Shown in pieces: positions 19,857 through 24,122 of a DNA stretch of 24,207 nucleotides. Position 1 is the first letter of the stretch, and each line of letters begins with the position of its first letter. The position numbers and the translations under genes were made by a program. The DNA lies in IMG/VR virus record IMGVR_UViG_3300020159_003442, positions 1 through 24,207 of that record. One strand, given 5' to 3'. Source of the DNA: a virus. Under the pieces are notes generated by a model. That model ran no database searches. It saw only the letters and a program-made list of their open reading frames with translations, and was not told where the DNA came from.

Positions 19857-20305
19857 GATAAGTCACCCTCTATGACCCACTTTGCATAGGAAGAGCCAAG
19901 CCACTCCGCAAAACCACGCGGTACAAAAACAACTTGGCGCTTCGGCATCTTTGATGTTCCCATTTGATGAAATTTTGCATACGAGACGGTCGTGCCGAAT
20001 TCAAATGAGTCTTTTGTTATTTTTGTGGCTGTGTTGTTTAGGTTCACCAAGCTGGAAAAGAGCTTTCCGCTTCTCACCATTGGCGGTGCTCCTGGGAATC
20101 TTATTGCTTTCCATGCTCCGTATTGGGCGTCAAGCGGGGACCATCCACCGGATGGCAGGCCATTTGATGTGAAGTTTTCAATATTTGCAAGTCTCAGTTT
20201 GTTTTGGGCTGCGGGGGCGAGTGGCATCATTGTTCCGGCACGTAGGGCCATTTTTTCAAGCTGTCTATCTAAGTTGCCAATATCTATATTGATTTCGATA
20301 TCCAT
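19853..20305 (-). CDS. Tail completion protein (virion morphogenesis / gpS-HK97 gp10-like, 150 aa)
   Basis: The motif FGTTVSYAKFHQMGTSKMPKRQVVFVP in the second half matches the HQxG...PxR signature of phage virion-morphogenesis (P2 gpS) and HK97 gp10-like neck proteins. I chose the ATG at 20305 (MDIEIN), which overlaps the stop of the connector as TAATG; an in-frame ATG eight codons upstream (20329) lacks a ribosome site and would overlap the connector. Its stop overlaps the next start (ATGA). Position between connector and terminator fits a protein that joins the tail to the head or closes the tail end. Confidence 0.8.
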   Translation of the reverse strand: MDIEINIDIGNLDRQLEKMALRAGTMMPLAPAAQNKLRLANIENFTSNGLPSGGWSPLDAQYGAWKAIRFPGAPPMVRSGKLFSSLVNLNNTATKITKDSFEFGTTVSYAKFHQMGTSKMPKRQVVFVPRGFAEWLGSSYAKWVIEGDLS

Positions 20306-21168
20306 TATGCAATTCTTCGCCTTCTCCATCGACGTATAGCAAGTAGTTCTTTTTCGAGAAATCCTGTTTCTACAGGAGCTACACCTCTTGGGTTTAAGTC
20401 TTTTATGCCAACAACGTCGTCATGCATGTTCTGCATTTCTCGTGTAGCTGCGCGGAGAATCATCAGTTTAAATACGTGGATTTGGCCTCCATCAAGACCG
20501 CCCTCGTAAGTAATTTCTACTGTGTCGTTTGGGAAACCACGATACATCTCAATTCCATACCTGTGAACTACATAGTCGCTGCCAGTAGCCGTTGCAGTTC
20601 CTGTTCCATCAGTTGTAACCCCAAGAGAAGGGTCAACACCATCAACCGTAAAGCTGTTTTCAGTAACGGCTGTTATTTCTTTTGCCGGTACGTTGTATCC
20701 GTCAGGGGCCATGTCTTTAACAACAACACGTTGACCTACTGTAAAACCATGAGCTGTAGCCGTATAGGTTATTGATGTGCCGGTTCGGACTGCGGCAGTT
20801 ACGGATGCGTTTCTCTGTAAGGCTTCTCCGAGATTTACGCCAGTTTCACCAAGGCTCTTAATCCGTACCTTGCTTATGCTTGCGACTGGAGTATTTCTTA
20901 GGGGCAATACCACCGAAGGCTGAATATAGTTTATGAAATTTCCTGTTGTATCAAGGCTTGAATCATAAAAGAAAGAAGTAGCTGGAACACCCTGAAAGTA
21001 GCTAGGAATTACATGTTCTTCAGTAGTTTCTAGCAACTCAATCGGCCTGCGCAAATATGCTTCTAGCTCACTTTGCAGACCTTCGAGCACAAATTCAGCC
21101 GCGTCGCGCTGCCGGTTGGACAAAGATATATCCATATACGTGATGAGGTCATTTATAGTTACGAGCAT
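20305..21168 (-). CDS. Head-tail connector (gp6/adaptor-like) with an inserted beta domain (287 aa)
   Basis: The N-terminal helical region (TINDLITYMDISLSNRQRDAAEFVL, then LEAYLRRPIE at 35-44) is typical of phage head-tail adaptors of the HK97 gp6/SPP1 gp15 type, as is the C-terminal part (VEITYEGG at 217-224, then HVFKLMILRAATREM). Residues about 121-195 are an insertion with the pattern THGF-VGQRVVV-GYNVP-ITAVTENSFTVDG. This resembles FCCH-like beta repeats found in phage proteins. The usual adaptor is far shorter. The extreme C-terminus is arginine-rich (RRWRRRRIA). The stop overlaps the next ATG (TAATG at 20307-20303), implying coupled translation. The product should sit on the portal ring at the neck. 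Confidence 0.8.
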   Translation of the reverse strand: MLVTINDLITYMDISLSNRQRDAAEFVLEGLQSELEAYLRRPIELLETTEEHVIPSYFQGVPATSFFYDSSLDTTGNFINYIQPSVVLPLRNTPVASISKVRIKSLGETGVNLGEALQRNASVTAAVRTGTSITYTATAHGFTVGQRVVVKDMAPDGYNVPAKEITAVTENSFTVDGVDPSLGVTTDGTGTATATGSDYVVHRYGIEMYRGFPNDTVEITYEGGLDGGQIHVFKLMILRAATREMQNMHDDVVGIKDLNPRGVAPVETGFLEKELLAIRRWRRRRIA

Positions 21169-21177
21169 TGATATGCC

Positions 21178-21378
21178 CTATCTACGGCCAAGAACGATGT
21201 TCCGACCCTCTGTGGCTAGAGCCCGCCCTTCACCCGCTTGGGTACGTACACGACTACCTTTACCGTACTGAAGTCTGTCCGCCAGGCGGTTCAGGGTATA
21301 GGAAACGGCACGACGCCACCATGGTGGTCTTTGCTCACCGAGAAGTTCTTCATCTTCAATGTCATTAGGATTAGGCAC
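21178..21378 (-). CDS. Small basic protein before the head-tail connector (66 aa, GTG start)
   Basis: The first codon is GTG, preceded by a strong Shine-Dalgarno GGAGG at 21389-21385 with 6-base spacing, which supports this start. The protein has an acidic N-terminus (IEDEELLG), a PPWWRRAV segment, then a basic helix and a glycine/arginine-rich tail ending in LGRR. I do not recognise the family. Its place directly before the connector suggests a head-completion or virion-associated peptide (inference). It ends ten bases before the start of the connector. Confidence 0.65.
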   Translation of the reverse strand: MPNPNDIEDEELLGEQRPPWWRRAVSYTLNRLADRLQYGKGSRVRTQAGEGRALATEGRNIVLGRR

Positions 21379-21437: not shown

Positions 21438-21989
21438 CTACCTGTCTTTGTTTGGCGGCTTTTCAATTTCTGCCATTTGTTCGGCCGCTCCAGTTGGTGC
21501 TTCAATGGGCACCCAGGCTTTTGAATAAGAGTATTCAGAAATCTTGCGCTGCTTGATTATTGAACTATCCATCATGAGGCTTATTTCTGCATAGCTCATA
21601 CTGAAAATATTCTTGATTTCATCAAGGCTGTATTTACCCGAGTGATAAATGTCTTGGACTATTGCCGACATATGCTTGGCAACCAAAGAGCCCCTGCCGC
21701 GATTTAGAGAAATGTGCATCACCATGGCATCAATGGCGTCAACATCCACATAAATGACGGGAATCATTTTCTTATCCCGTTTTAAGATTTTTTTATCAGC
21801 CTGCGCACAAATCCACCTATGGAATCCGTCAATAATGTGCATGGTTGATTTTTGAACAATTATTGGGGAAATCCATCCATAGTCATGAAGTGAGTCAGCT
21901 AAAACCTGAATGTCTGGTTTAAGCATGTGGGTAGCACGCCATGGAGCCGGTTTTAGCTCATCCCATTTTACGTATTCAATTTGCATCAT
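21438..21989 (-). CDS. ParB-like protein, IbrB-type (183 aa)
   Basis: Residues about 8-100 are a ParB N-terminal-like domain: LADSLHDYGWISPIIV (30-45), the catalytic/CTP-pocket-like IIDGFHRW (52-59) and NRGRGS (96-101). A helical segment follows (about 104-150, KYSLDEIKNIFSMSYAEISLMM), resembling the helix-turn-helix-like region of ParB/IbrB proteins. The tail after residue 155 is proline-rich and probably disordered. The start ATG lies inside the 3' end of the PP-loop gene (14-base overlap; a second ATG follows directly and either may be used). The pairing with an IbrA-like gene argues that the two proteins act together. It shares the ParB fold with the 266-aa protein, but the motifs differ enough that this is not a recent duplication. 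Confidence 0.8.
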   Translation of the reverse strand: MMQIEYVKWDELKPAPWRATHMLKPDIQVLADSLHDYGWISPIIVQKSTMHIIDGFHRWICAQADKKILKRDKKMIPVIYVDVDAIDAMVMHISLNRGRGSLVAKHMSAIVQDIYHSGKYSLDEIKNIFSMSYAEISLMMDSSIIKQRKISEYSYSKAWVPIEAPTGAAEQMAEIEKPPNKDR

Positions 21990-23109
21990 CTTCTGCCTGT
22001 ATTATTTCTTGTATTGAGTAGGCCTTTGTCCCAGGCCCAATCGGGTTTACGGCTGTGGTAGCAAATTCATGCATCAGTAAATTTCTAATTAACCAATGTA
22101 TAGGGTACGAGTTTTTATCCTTTGCATGTTTTTTTCTAAACTCCGCCGTGTAAGCCATAGCCCTTTTCTTTAACCCTGGAGTTAAAACATTTTCTTCTAT
22201 GCATCGCTTGACACCATCCCAGCCTTCAGATGCGTAACGCAAAATGACGGCCTCAATGTTGAACTCTGGCCACCATCGGCGCTGAGCGTCAATTTGTGGA
22301 AAACACTCCACAAGCCTGTCATAGAATTCTGGCTCGGTTGCAACAACATCACCTATGCGTCGGATAGCAACGGCATGAAGAGGGATGCCTACCCGCGAGT
22401 TGCTTCCTGTCAACGCGGCGTAGTCGTAGTACTCGCAATAAGTTGCATTGTGCTCTTCTGTAATAAACTTAAAAACGTCGTCGGCTGTCCAGTCGTAAAT
22501 CACTTTTGCAAAACGTAGAGGTATGTTTTTTTTCATTTTATAAGGAATAACAATATAGTTCTCGTGAAGTTTTTGAACACAGGACCTGTAACGAATCATT
22601 GACTCGTTTGCTCGAACTCCGGTTATAAAAGCAACTTTCCCTTTTTTTCCCTGCATTGTGTAGTAGTCAATTGATTCAATAATTTTTTTTGTTGGGTCAA
22701 GTCCAAAATGTTCAGCCCTAATAGCCCAATCCGGAATAGGGCGAATAAGCCTGCCCTGTTTTTCGCGCATTCCGGACCAAAGTAGGCAATACTCGCGGCG
22801 GCCTAAAACCCATATTTCTTGACCTTGAGGCAAGCAATACCACTCCATGTCAACCCAGTCATAGTTGCGAACCTCTTCAACAAACTTGATTACAGAAGGG
22901 CTAACCATTTCTTCGTCACGGAAAATAACTTTTACCGGACCCAAGCCTCGCTCTTCGTGAATTTCTTTTGCTAAATACAAAACAGCCGTAGAGTCTTTTC
23001 CTCCAGAAAACTGAATGCACACGGTGTCAAATGTGTCATAGACGTGACGCATTCGTTCCCTAGCCGCATCAACACATGAAATATCTAAGTAAAGTTTTTG
23101 CCTAGGCAT
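21976..23109 (-). CDS. PAPS reductase-like PP-loop ATPase, IbrA-type (377 aa)
   Basis: A PP-loop (SGGKDS, residues 35-40, preceded by VCIQF) identifies the adenine nucleotide alpha-hydrolase fold used by PAPS reductases, ATP sulfurylases, tRNA thiolases and DndC. GVRANES at 164-170 and DWTADDVF at 206-213 are the second and third blocks expected in phage PAPS-reductase-like and IbrA-like proteins. The long C-terminal helical region (about 255-377) goes beyond the classical enzyme. No ECGxH reductase motif and no clustered cysteines for an Fe-S centre are visible, so true PAPS reduction is unlikely; nucleotide-dependent modification of DNA, RNA or a small molecule is the alternative. It overlaps the downstream ParB-like gene by 14 bases, as in ibrA-ibrB type pairs. 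Confidence 0.85.
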   Translation of the reverse strand: MPRQKLYLDISCVDAARERMRHVYDTFDTVCIQFSGGKDSTAVLYLAKEIHEERGLGPVKVIFRDEEMVSPSVIKFVEEVRNYDWVDMEWYCLPQGQEIWVLGRREYCLLWSGMREKQGRLIRPIPDWAIRAEHFGLDPTKKIIESIDYYTMQGKKGKVAFITGVRANESMIRYRSCVQKLHENYIVIPYKMKKNIPLRFAKVIYDWTADDVFKFITEEHNATYCEYYDYAALTGSNSRVGIPLHAVAIRRIGDVVATEPEFYDRLVECFPQIDAQRRWWPEFNIEAVILRYASEGWDGVKRCIEENVLTPGLKKRAMAYTAEFRKKHAKDKNSYPIHWLIRNLLMHEFATTAVNPIGPGTKAYSIQEIIQAEDDAN

Positions 23110-23341
23110 TATGCGCTTCTTTAATCATTGGCCTAACTAATTGGTGTAGCTCGCGTAAAGCCGCTTCCGGACCACTCGCAAAAGACGTAACGACAGAAAA
23201 ATTTTCTGTTTTCGTCGACGCAGTCCACTTGTTGGGTTCATGCATTAACAGCGTAAAAGTCATATTGTGTATAGAAAAAAATTTGGCGTAAGAAATTATG
23301 TCGCCTGACTCAAGGCTGTAATTAGATTTCGGTGTGAACAT
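23102..23341 (-). CDS. Hypothetical protein between ParB-like and PAPS-reductase-like genes (79 aa)
   Basis: I do not recognise a family. The protein is 79 residues long, with a central beta-prone stretch (MTFTLLMHEPNKW, then TENFSVVTSF) and an amphipathic C-terminal helix (EAALRELHQLVRPMIKEA). It has no signal peptide, membrane segment or cysteine. It overlaps the preceding ParB-like gene by 20 bases and the following PP-loop gene by 8 bases, so it is very likely translated as part of the same cluster. The size and position would fit a small partner or adaptor of the neighbouring enzymes; that is inference only. Confidence 0.65.
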   Translation of the reverse strand: MFTPKSNYSLESGDIISYAKFFSIHNMTFTLLMHEPNKWTASTKTENFSVVTSFASGPEAALRELHQLVRPMIKEAHNA

Positions 23342-24122
23342 TTATAAACTCCATTAAGCGCTGTGCCGTCGTTTCTCCTTCATAGACGGGCGACGATTTT
23401 AAAAAACGAATAAATTCGTACCACTTCCGCTGCTGTTCAGAATCATCAAAAACAAGAGTATATTGAACTACTGCTTTTGTTGTTTTTGAAAGACCAATGG
23501 CGGCACTGCCGAGGGAAATGGCGTCATTCACATCAATCTTATCAGTGGCCGTAAGACGAGCTGCGCCGTCTTCACCGCGCGTTGCGGTCACCCTATCTGC
23601 CGAAAGTTCTTCGGTATCACGAACATTTACCGGCATAACCATCTCTGGCGGAATGTAGCCCGTACCAATGTCGGTGTCCATCTTCGCCGCGTATGCGGCT
23701 GTCTCGTCTAGTGCGGCCATTTCAAATTCATCCCACCCAAGTCCATCAAGCAGGTTGTAGTACTCGGGTCGAATGTCATCTAAAAGTGCGAATAGTTGGT
23801 CTTGCTCCGTGTGTCCAAGCTCCATTGTTCTGTTGTCAGCAAGGGCAAAAGCAATGGCCCGAGCATCGTCAACAGGCATTGAAACGGCAGCAATGTGTGT
23901 CCATCCAAGTCGTTTTGCTGCTTCAAGCTGGTGATTTCCGGCAATCACTGTAAAAGTGTCGTCGTTGTTTGGGCGTATTACTATGGGTCGGACCTGACCA
24001 AATTCTTCATACGAAGCGGCGATGGCGTCTACGTCACCTTTTCTAGGGTTGTTTTGAAGAGGAAGAAGAGAATCAACGGCCACTAGAAGATTTTTAATGT
24101 CCTCATTTACGTTGCATATCAT
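23322..24122 (-). CDS. ParB-like N-terminal domain protein (266 aa)
   Basis: Residues about 12-100 carry the ParB/sulfiredoxin-like fold: an NPRKGD turn at 25-30, a helix followed by FGQVRPIVIR, the AGNHQLEAA motif at 61-69 and ADNRT at 95-99. Members of this superfamily bind DNA and CTP, or act as nucleases or nucleotide-hydrolysing enzymes. The chromosome-partition ParB helix-turn-helix is not obvious. The C-terminal part (about 215-262, TLVFDDSEQQRKWYEFIRFL then a helix) looks like a small separate alpha/beta domain. The start at 24122 follows the preceding stop by two bases. The 3' end overlaps the next gene by 20 bases, which suggests translational coupling. It is probably a DNA-interacting phage protein; a role in partition is unlikely because no ParA is seen. 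Confidence 0.8.
   Translation of the reverse strand: MICNVNEDIKNLLVAVDSLLPLQNNPRKGDVDAIAASYEEFGQVRPIVIRPNNDDTFTVIAGNHQLEAAKRLGWTHIAAVSMPVDDARAIAFALADNRTMELGHTEQDQLFALLDDIRPEYYNLLDGLGWDEFEMAALDETAAYAAKMDTDIGTGYIPPEMVMPVNVRDTEELSADRVTATRGEDGAARLTATDKIDVNDAISLGSAAIGLSKTTKAVVQYTLVFDDSEQQRKWYEFIRFLKSSPVYEGETTAQRLMEFINVHTEI

Follow-up and report, generated by a model that had tools for sequence, protein, structure and literature searches.

The genes lying ahead of the neck genes in this viral DNA encode two ParB-like proteins (ParB1 and ParB2) and a PP-loop protein, and we judge from comparison of sequences and folds that the three are probably the core genes of a cassette with which the phage modifies its DNA, with a probability of about 0.6. 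The key result, new here, is that in comparable phages the PP-loop and ParB2 genes appear to swap places with cassettes that modify DNA bases. The homology, the folds, the conserved gene order and this exchange of slot are results of the computation, and are described in turn. The window, the whole stretch of DNA analysed, is a 24,207-base fragment from IMG/VR. No match to the region was found among isolated phages in a DNA-level search. The relevant genes are:

23322..24122, minus strand: ParB1, a ParB/Srx-domain protein of 266 aa (Pfam ParB_N, 8e-10; phrog_723, 3e-39)
23102..23341, minus strand: 79-aa ORF, a lineage-specific accessory outside the core (no family match in Pfam or PHROGs)
21976..23109, minus strand: PP-loop (PAPS-reductase-like) protein of 377 aa, a predicted adenylyltransferase-type enzyme (Pfam PAPS_reduct, 1e-10; phrog_2302, 1e-72)
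21438..21989, minus strand: ParB2 (IbrB-like), 183 aa, with a ParB N-domain, a helical domain and a low-confidence tail ending in PPNKDR (phrog_2159, 2e-34)
21178..21378, minus strand: sm66, a 66-aa ORF between ParB2 and the neck genes that follows ParB2 in the window's lineage
20305..21168, minus strand: first neck-region gene past the cassette (context), conserved after ParB2 in 37 of the 38 ParB2 loci left once redundancy is removed

The place of the first four genes and their overlaps of 20, 8 and 14 bases, given in a preliminary description, agree with a check of the open reading frames, which puts all four on the minus strand. The last overlap may be 11 bases rather than 14, because ParB2 starts with MM while many relatives have a single M, placing the true start perhaps 3 bases later. 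The four genes precede the neck genes as described, with sm66 in between; beyond sm66 lie the neck/tail-completion, sheath and tube genes of a contractile tail. sm66 goes with the ParB2–neck locus and not with the cassette, and the GGAGG ribosome site before it is conserved in relatives. A TATAAT-like stretch between ParB2 and sm66 is not kept in the relatives; since the ribosome site alone is conserved, no promoter is claimed.

The PP-loop protein scores above the Pfam PAPS_reduct cut-off and contains the SGGKDS (residues 35–40) and GVRANES (residues 164–170) motifs that had been noted. SGGKDS is invariant in 40 aligned sequences, down to 20% identity. The cysteine motif of the reductases is missing, as was also claimed, with ECGxH in none of the 40 aligned members, and no column of the alignment is an invariant cysteine. 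The AlphaFold2 model (pLDDT 86.8) is closest in fold, among solved structures, to FAD synthase (Z = 16.6 over 183 aa), followed by APS/PAPS reductases (Z = 14.4) and TilS/MesJ (Z = 11.6). The best profile matches among solved sequences are FAD synthase (2e-7) and the ATP sulfurylase subunit CysD. The protein is neither a reductase nor DndC. These matches speak for adenylyl transfer, and against reduction or the transfer of sulfur. The PP-loop domain of FAD synthase (FMN adenylyltransferase) has the motif DW..D...YC.LYD in common with the window protein; the identity is 17% and FMN is not the expected substrate. The C-terminal helical part of the window protein (residues about 260–377) is little covered by FAD synthase.

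Viral loci (80 in total) were selected by PP-loop identity, and the ranking of genes by divergence was rechecked with loci found through ParB2 added. In the set that includes these added loci the PP-loop gene is the slowest to diverge, with a mean difference of 0.26 against 0.42–0.53 for the others; it diverges about half as fast as the sheath or ParB2 genes. In a mirror-tree comparison the distances of the PP-loop protein and ParB2 are correlated with r = 0.71, and those of either with sheath or neck proteins with r = 0.67–0.80. The correlation within the pair is thus no better than with the structural genes, so that it carries no signal of coupling beyond shared descent.

ParB2 has the DGFHRW ParB motif ascribed to it, and the two ParB-like proteins of the locus do differ from each other. 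ParB2 matches Pfam ParB_N at 1e-4, which is under the cut-off. Its AlphaFold2 model has a pLDDT of 84, with a low-confidence tail. The first 100 residues match ParB/Noc, with Z = 11.7 and an RMSD of 1.4 over 92 residues for Noc (7ng0) and Z = 11.6 for the ParB–CDP complex (6sdk), while KorB (Z = 14.1) aligns over most of the chain. The modelled fold is that of the nucleotide-binding domain of ParB/Noc. The DGxxR and NR motifs are conserved in this candidate CTPase clamp. No ParA is annotated in the phage regions that were read. ParB1 passes the ParB_N cut-off (8e-10), has a conserved C-terminal segment (VVQYTLVFDD..QQRKWYEFIRFLK) and is homologous to gp1 of phages Gadjet, Lars, Wooper, Heath and Stinger. 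Both ParB1 and ParB2 match phrog_498 and the PADLOC type II MTase profile, which include ParB domains fused to DNA methyltransferases.

Three of the four genes, those of ParB1, PP-loop and ParB2, make up a conserved set. It had been suggested that the same order be sought in other phages, and that a lack of joint conservation would count against the idea. Unrelated phages of Mycobacterium, Arthrobacter and Bacillus do show this order, mostly next to the terminase genes, and the three neighbours are conserved together. Many of the 80 viral loci keep the order ParB1-x-PP-loop-ParB2-sm66-neck-sheath. Among non-redundant loci, the gene directly downstream of PP-loop is of ParB2 type in 31 of the 51 viral ones and in 47 of the 54 from bacteria. 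The gene set is real and goes beyond chance: dozens of independent loci show this order. The 79-aa ORF falls outside the conserved set, and its supposed membership of the cluster is not upheld: it has 43% identity to an ORF in one relative (L004), the ORF in the corresponding position of another (L005) is only weakly similar, and it is regarded as non-core since it is found only in close relatives.

The order is not obligatory. In records of 105 and 138 kb (G004 and G013) all three genes are present but far apart, so the PP-loop gene can sit tens of kilobases away, and in one of 55 kb (G016) ParB2 alone is separated from the other two. Some loci of the window's lineage have neither ParB1 nor the PP-loop gene, and a 79-kb record (a fragment) contains ParB2 without either. 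In loci such as L129 and L145, ParB2 is preceded by the gene of a ∼114-aa protein that elsewhere precedes ParB1, so that ParB1–PP-loop behaves as an optional insert ahead of ParB2. The unit is thus partly optional, because ParB2 can adjoin the neck genes without a PP-loop gene.

The same module is found in other phages and prophages, arranged as follows:

Gadjet: ParB1, two small genes, PP-loop, ParB2, terL
Laroye: ParB, PP-loop, ParB2, methyltransferase, terS, terL
Mycobacterium abscessus prophage 79-1: ParB, ParB, small gene, PP-loop, small gene, ParB2, methyltransferase, HNH, terminase
Bacillus 031MP004: ParB, PP-loop, methyltransferase, ParB2 at the end of the record; terS and terL at its start
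Rhizobium RHph_I4: two ParB genes, PP-loop, ParB2, in mid-genome

In Laroye, prophage 79-1 and Bacillus 031MP004 the methyltransferase is of one and the same family, phrog_11826, which by profile also adjoins the module in Nocardia and Rhodoplanes; none was found in 18 window-type records. A Rhizobium gene annotated as a DNA methyltransferase adjoining IbrA proved to encode a ParB protein.

The exchange of slot is seen in phages that start with a homologous ParB1 and whose terL is 57–60% identical to that of Gadjet. In some of them the interval from ParB1 to terL contains PP-loop–ParB2, in others a known or predicted DNA-base-modification cassette, and in two of them hypothetical genes:

Gadjet: small genes, PP-loop, ParB2
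M. abscessus prophage 79-1: PP-loop and ParB2 with the methyltransferase
Lars, Saguaro: DpdA, QueC, QueD, QueE, FolE
Wooper: TET/JBP-like oxygenase, amino-acid:DNA transferase (aGPT-PPlase/ADDT), protein of a DNA-kinase family
Heath, Stinger: TET/JBP-like oxygenase and the kinase family of Wooper (annotated as TGT/oxidoreductase and adenylate kinase)
Serendipitous: TET/JBP, TET-associated glycosyltransferase, PIG-L
NHagos, Mariokart: two hypothetical genes (GNAT- and formyltransferase-like in NHagos)

The TET/JBP matches are under the Pfam cut-off (E values from 6e-4 to 3e-7). In Rosebush, which is of the same species as Lars, dPreQ0 was measured at ∼28% of G (PMC6884629). The Rosebush-type locus (ParB1-DpdA-QueC-QueD-QueE-FolE-terL) resembles that of Gadjet in its homologous ParB1, its terL, the slot and the direction of transcription, but its catalytic genes direct 7-deazaguanine synthesis and transglycosylation and are unrelated to PP-loop and ParB2. 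A second lineage has the order ParB-ParB-TET/JBP-kinase-terS-terL in Ottawa as against ParB-PP-loop-ParB2-MTase-terS-terL in Laroye; the terL proteins are 64% and the terS proteins 48% identical, and the ParBs are homologous. In Wooper, Heath and Ottawa the cassette of TET/JBP, aGPT-PPlase/ADDT and 5hmU DNA kinase type thus occupies the slot of the PP-loop module, behind ParB1 and before the terminase. These cassettes carry an oxygenase or kinase, whereas none is annotated beside the PP-loop module in the loci read; therefore the module would act on an unmodified base or on another group. All of these exchanges are in actinobacterial (mycobacterial and Arthrobacter) phages, and at the loci compared in the window's lineage no known modification gene has been swapped in at the place of the cassette. 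We read the exchange as the swapping of DNA-modification cassettes behind a common ParB, an association and not a proof; in that sense it lends backing to the earlier suggestion that the cluster could modify phage DNA.

The IbrA–IbrB genes of Escherichia coli and its relatives are adjacent and often overlapping genes of PP-loop and ParB2 type, as in the window. The pair occurs in 1848 of 5426 E. coli genomes (∼one third, at 80% coverage), on the chromosome, on plasmids and in prophage remnants. The window PP-loop protein has both IbrA motifs (SGGKDS and GxRAxES), and its IbrB-like ParB gene follows directly 3′ with an overlap. At ∼25% identity the two pairs are distant relatives. IbrA has a DUF3440 domain (5e-33 in an IbrA of an E. 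coli phage) that is missing from the window protein up to an E value of 1, and no ParB1 adjoins the pair in those E. coli loci that were viewed. The locus had been identified as the IbrA–IbrB combination; the pairing is borne out, with the correction that the window protein is without the DUF3440 of E. coli IbrA. DndC–DndB of the phosphorothioation system is an analogy, as a PP-loop enzyme with a protein of the ParB superfamily (PMC10853773), and PAPS-reductase-like phage proteins of M. abscessus prophages were already noted in 2021 as resembling DndC (PMC8092301). The likeness of the window protein to DndC that was mentioned earlier is weak. DndC has 4Fe-4S and dyad cysteines whereas the window PP-loop family has none conserved, and the protein scores 25.6 bits against a curated DndC cut-off of 290. 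No cysteine desulfurase was found in 15 phage records, with the control positive in 14 of 14 genomes. In the literature we found no link of the phage PP-loop–ParB pair to DNA modification, although subscription papers or earlier computational surveys may mention one.

If the three genes do constitute a modification cassette, the ParB-fold proteins would bind phage DNA, probably in an NTP-dependent manner, and recruit the PP-loop enzyme. The latter would spend ATP to adenylylate either a group on the DNA or a small molecule for later attachment to it, with release of pyrophosphate, and in some phages the phrog_11826 methyltransferase may finish or alter the product. The mark may be placed late, on concatemers ahead of packaging, because the cassette usually adjoins packaging or late genes, and its role would most likely be to shield virion DNA from host restriction. 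In this scheme it is DNA as the substrate, adenylylation, timing and protection that we infer. A more specific version, which we hold only tentatively and consider rather doubtful, has PP-loop–ParB2 adenylylating an ordinary base of double-stranded DNA directly, as TilS acts on tRNA cytidine, with no prior oxidation or base exchange, which would make the pair a new class of base-modifying machine; on this view the IbrA–IbrB pairs of cells would belong to that DNA-modification family too, and the gene activation reported for them would be epigenetic.

Counted in favour of DNA modification are the slot exchange in two lineages, the linked methyltransferase and the ParB–methyltransferase fusions; the adjacency of PP-loop and ParB2 and the retention of all three genes even where they are dispersed; and the adenylyltransferase-type fold, invariant ATP motif, lack of an invariant cysteine and slow divergence of the PP-loop protein. 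Against it, the slot beside terL could carry other cargo, as the hypothetical genes of NHagos and Mariokart illustrate, and the argument is one of guilt by association. The window lineage shows no swap, some loci simply being without ParB1 and PP-loop, and 18 window-type records have no methyltransferase.

Also against DNA modification, a title cited by two papers (Sandt 2002) describes IbrA and IbrB as activating the eib genes of prophages. Together with the homology of the two pairs and the tight packing of the window genes with late genes, this would fit a transcription co-activator, in which PP-loop and ParB2 bind DNA, leave it unaltered and switch on late phage or host genes. We consider this unlikely: it leaves unexplained the exchange with base-modification cassettes and the linked methyltransferase, the window protein has no DUF3440 domain, and activation could itself stem from an epigenetic mark. 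A somewhat smaller chance is given to a packaging or genome-handling module, with the ParBs as DNA clamps or adaptors that the PP-loop protein regulates by NTP use or adenylylation. The cassette adjoins terminase or neck genes in the Mycobacterium, Arthrobacter and Bacillus phages and in the window lineage, ParB2 has a ParB/Noc-type fold, and it keeps its place at the neck locus even if the PP-loop gene is missing or has another location; yet the PP-loop gene can be tens of kilobases distant, those E. coli-type pairs that were viewed occur without packaging genes, on chromosomes and plasmids, and replacement by modification cassettes would not be predicted for a packaging factor.

That the module inactivates a host defence system or depletes nucleotides is improbable. 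No effector or nuclease domain was found with Pfam, PHROGs or defence profiles, and both the pairing throughout the family and the exchange of slot speak for DNA as the substrate, even though members of the ParB superfamily have been suggested to act as effectors that degrade nucleotides (PMC10853773) and the PP-loop protein weakly matches the DndC and BrxP defence profiles. Auxiliary sulfur metabolism, meaning true PAPS or APS reduction, is suggested by the Pfam and database names and by the overall resemblance in fold to the reductases. It is effectively refuted by the missing catalytic cysteine; the PP-loop gene is, moreover, tied to ParB genes, and the 15 records searched contain no cysteine desulfurase.

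Many phage records label PP-loop genes of this kind as ‘PAPS reductase’ or as ‘auxiliary sulfur metabolism’. The exchange of slot gives testable ground for regarding them as DNA-modification enzymes, and isolated phages with the cassette exist in Gadjet, Laroye and Bacillus 031MP004. If the reading is confirmed, a new base modification would await in laboratory phages, and the large family of unexplained bacterial IbrA–IbrB pairs would gain a likely biochemical role.

A single methyltransferase family, phrog_11826, is a recurrent companion of the module formed by ParB1, the PP-loop protein and ParB2, and is found at five of the compared loci:
L083, 5528-6106, phrog_11826 methyltransferase
L084, 8971-9576, phrog_11826 methyltransferase
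L085, 7088-7639, phrog_11826 methyltransferase
L189, 7586-8197, phrog_11826 methyltransferase
L190, 7094-8128, phrog_11826 methyltransferase

These proteins conserve ARR.xPE in place of a DPPY-type motif, and are weakly similar to the Erm rRNA methyltransferases. The 'putative DNA methyltransferase' of a Rhizobium phage (L086, 7241-7939) is really a ParB-domain protein; its sole methyltransferase-named match spans the ParB part of that profile.

PP-loop genes also lie in other neighbourhoods. A group of viral contigs (L042, L022, L046, L048, L052 and similar) encodes a PP-loop protein ~80% identical to the one in the window, in quite unlike surroundings, with neither ParB2 nor virion genes nearby. 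The PP-loop gene of L187, a contig in a MAG labelled Oxalobacteraceae, is 78% identical and ParB2 is absent from the contig, which is probably viral and binned into that MAG. At the end of Microbacterium phage Hendrix (L087, 3613-7161) a glycosyltransferase, methyltransferase, acetyltransferase and PP-loop protein could be another set acting on DNA or sugars.

The window neck gene (20305-21168) is ~80 aa longer than in many relatives. Its additional stretch (residues about 109-194) has matches among phage tail-protein profiles and seems to be a domain insertion, as the L072 and L138 types also have long versions.

Pfam gives matches to the TET/JBP oxygenase and Ploopntkinase3 families in the following genes:
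L273, 785-1759 and 2863-3465, TET/JBP / Ploopntkinase3 genes
L274, 776-2376, TET/JBP / Ploopntkinase3 genes
L281, 813-1730, TET/JBP / Ploopntkinase3 genes
L282, 5478-6904, TET/JBP / Ploopntkinase3 genes

Since these matches contradict the record labels ('queuine tRNA-ribosyltransferase', 'oxidoreductase' and 'adenylate kinase'), the genes are likely a misannotated TET-DNA kinase pathway. In two Gordonia phages the ParB1-terL slot holds a pair of hypothetical proteins:
L279 (NHagos), 630-2473, two hypothetical proteins
L280 (Mariokart), 609-2446, two hypothetical proteins

Those of NHagos match GNAT and formyltransferase, and the pairs are possibly another uncharacterised DNA-modification cassette.
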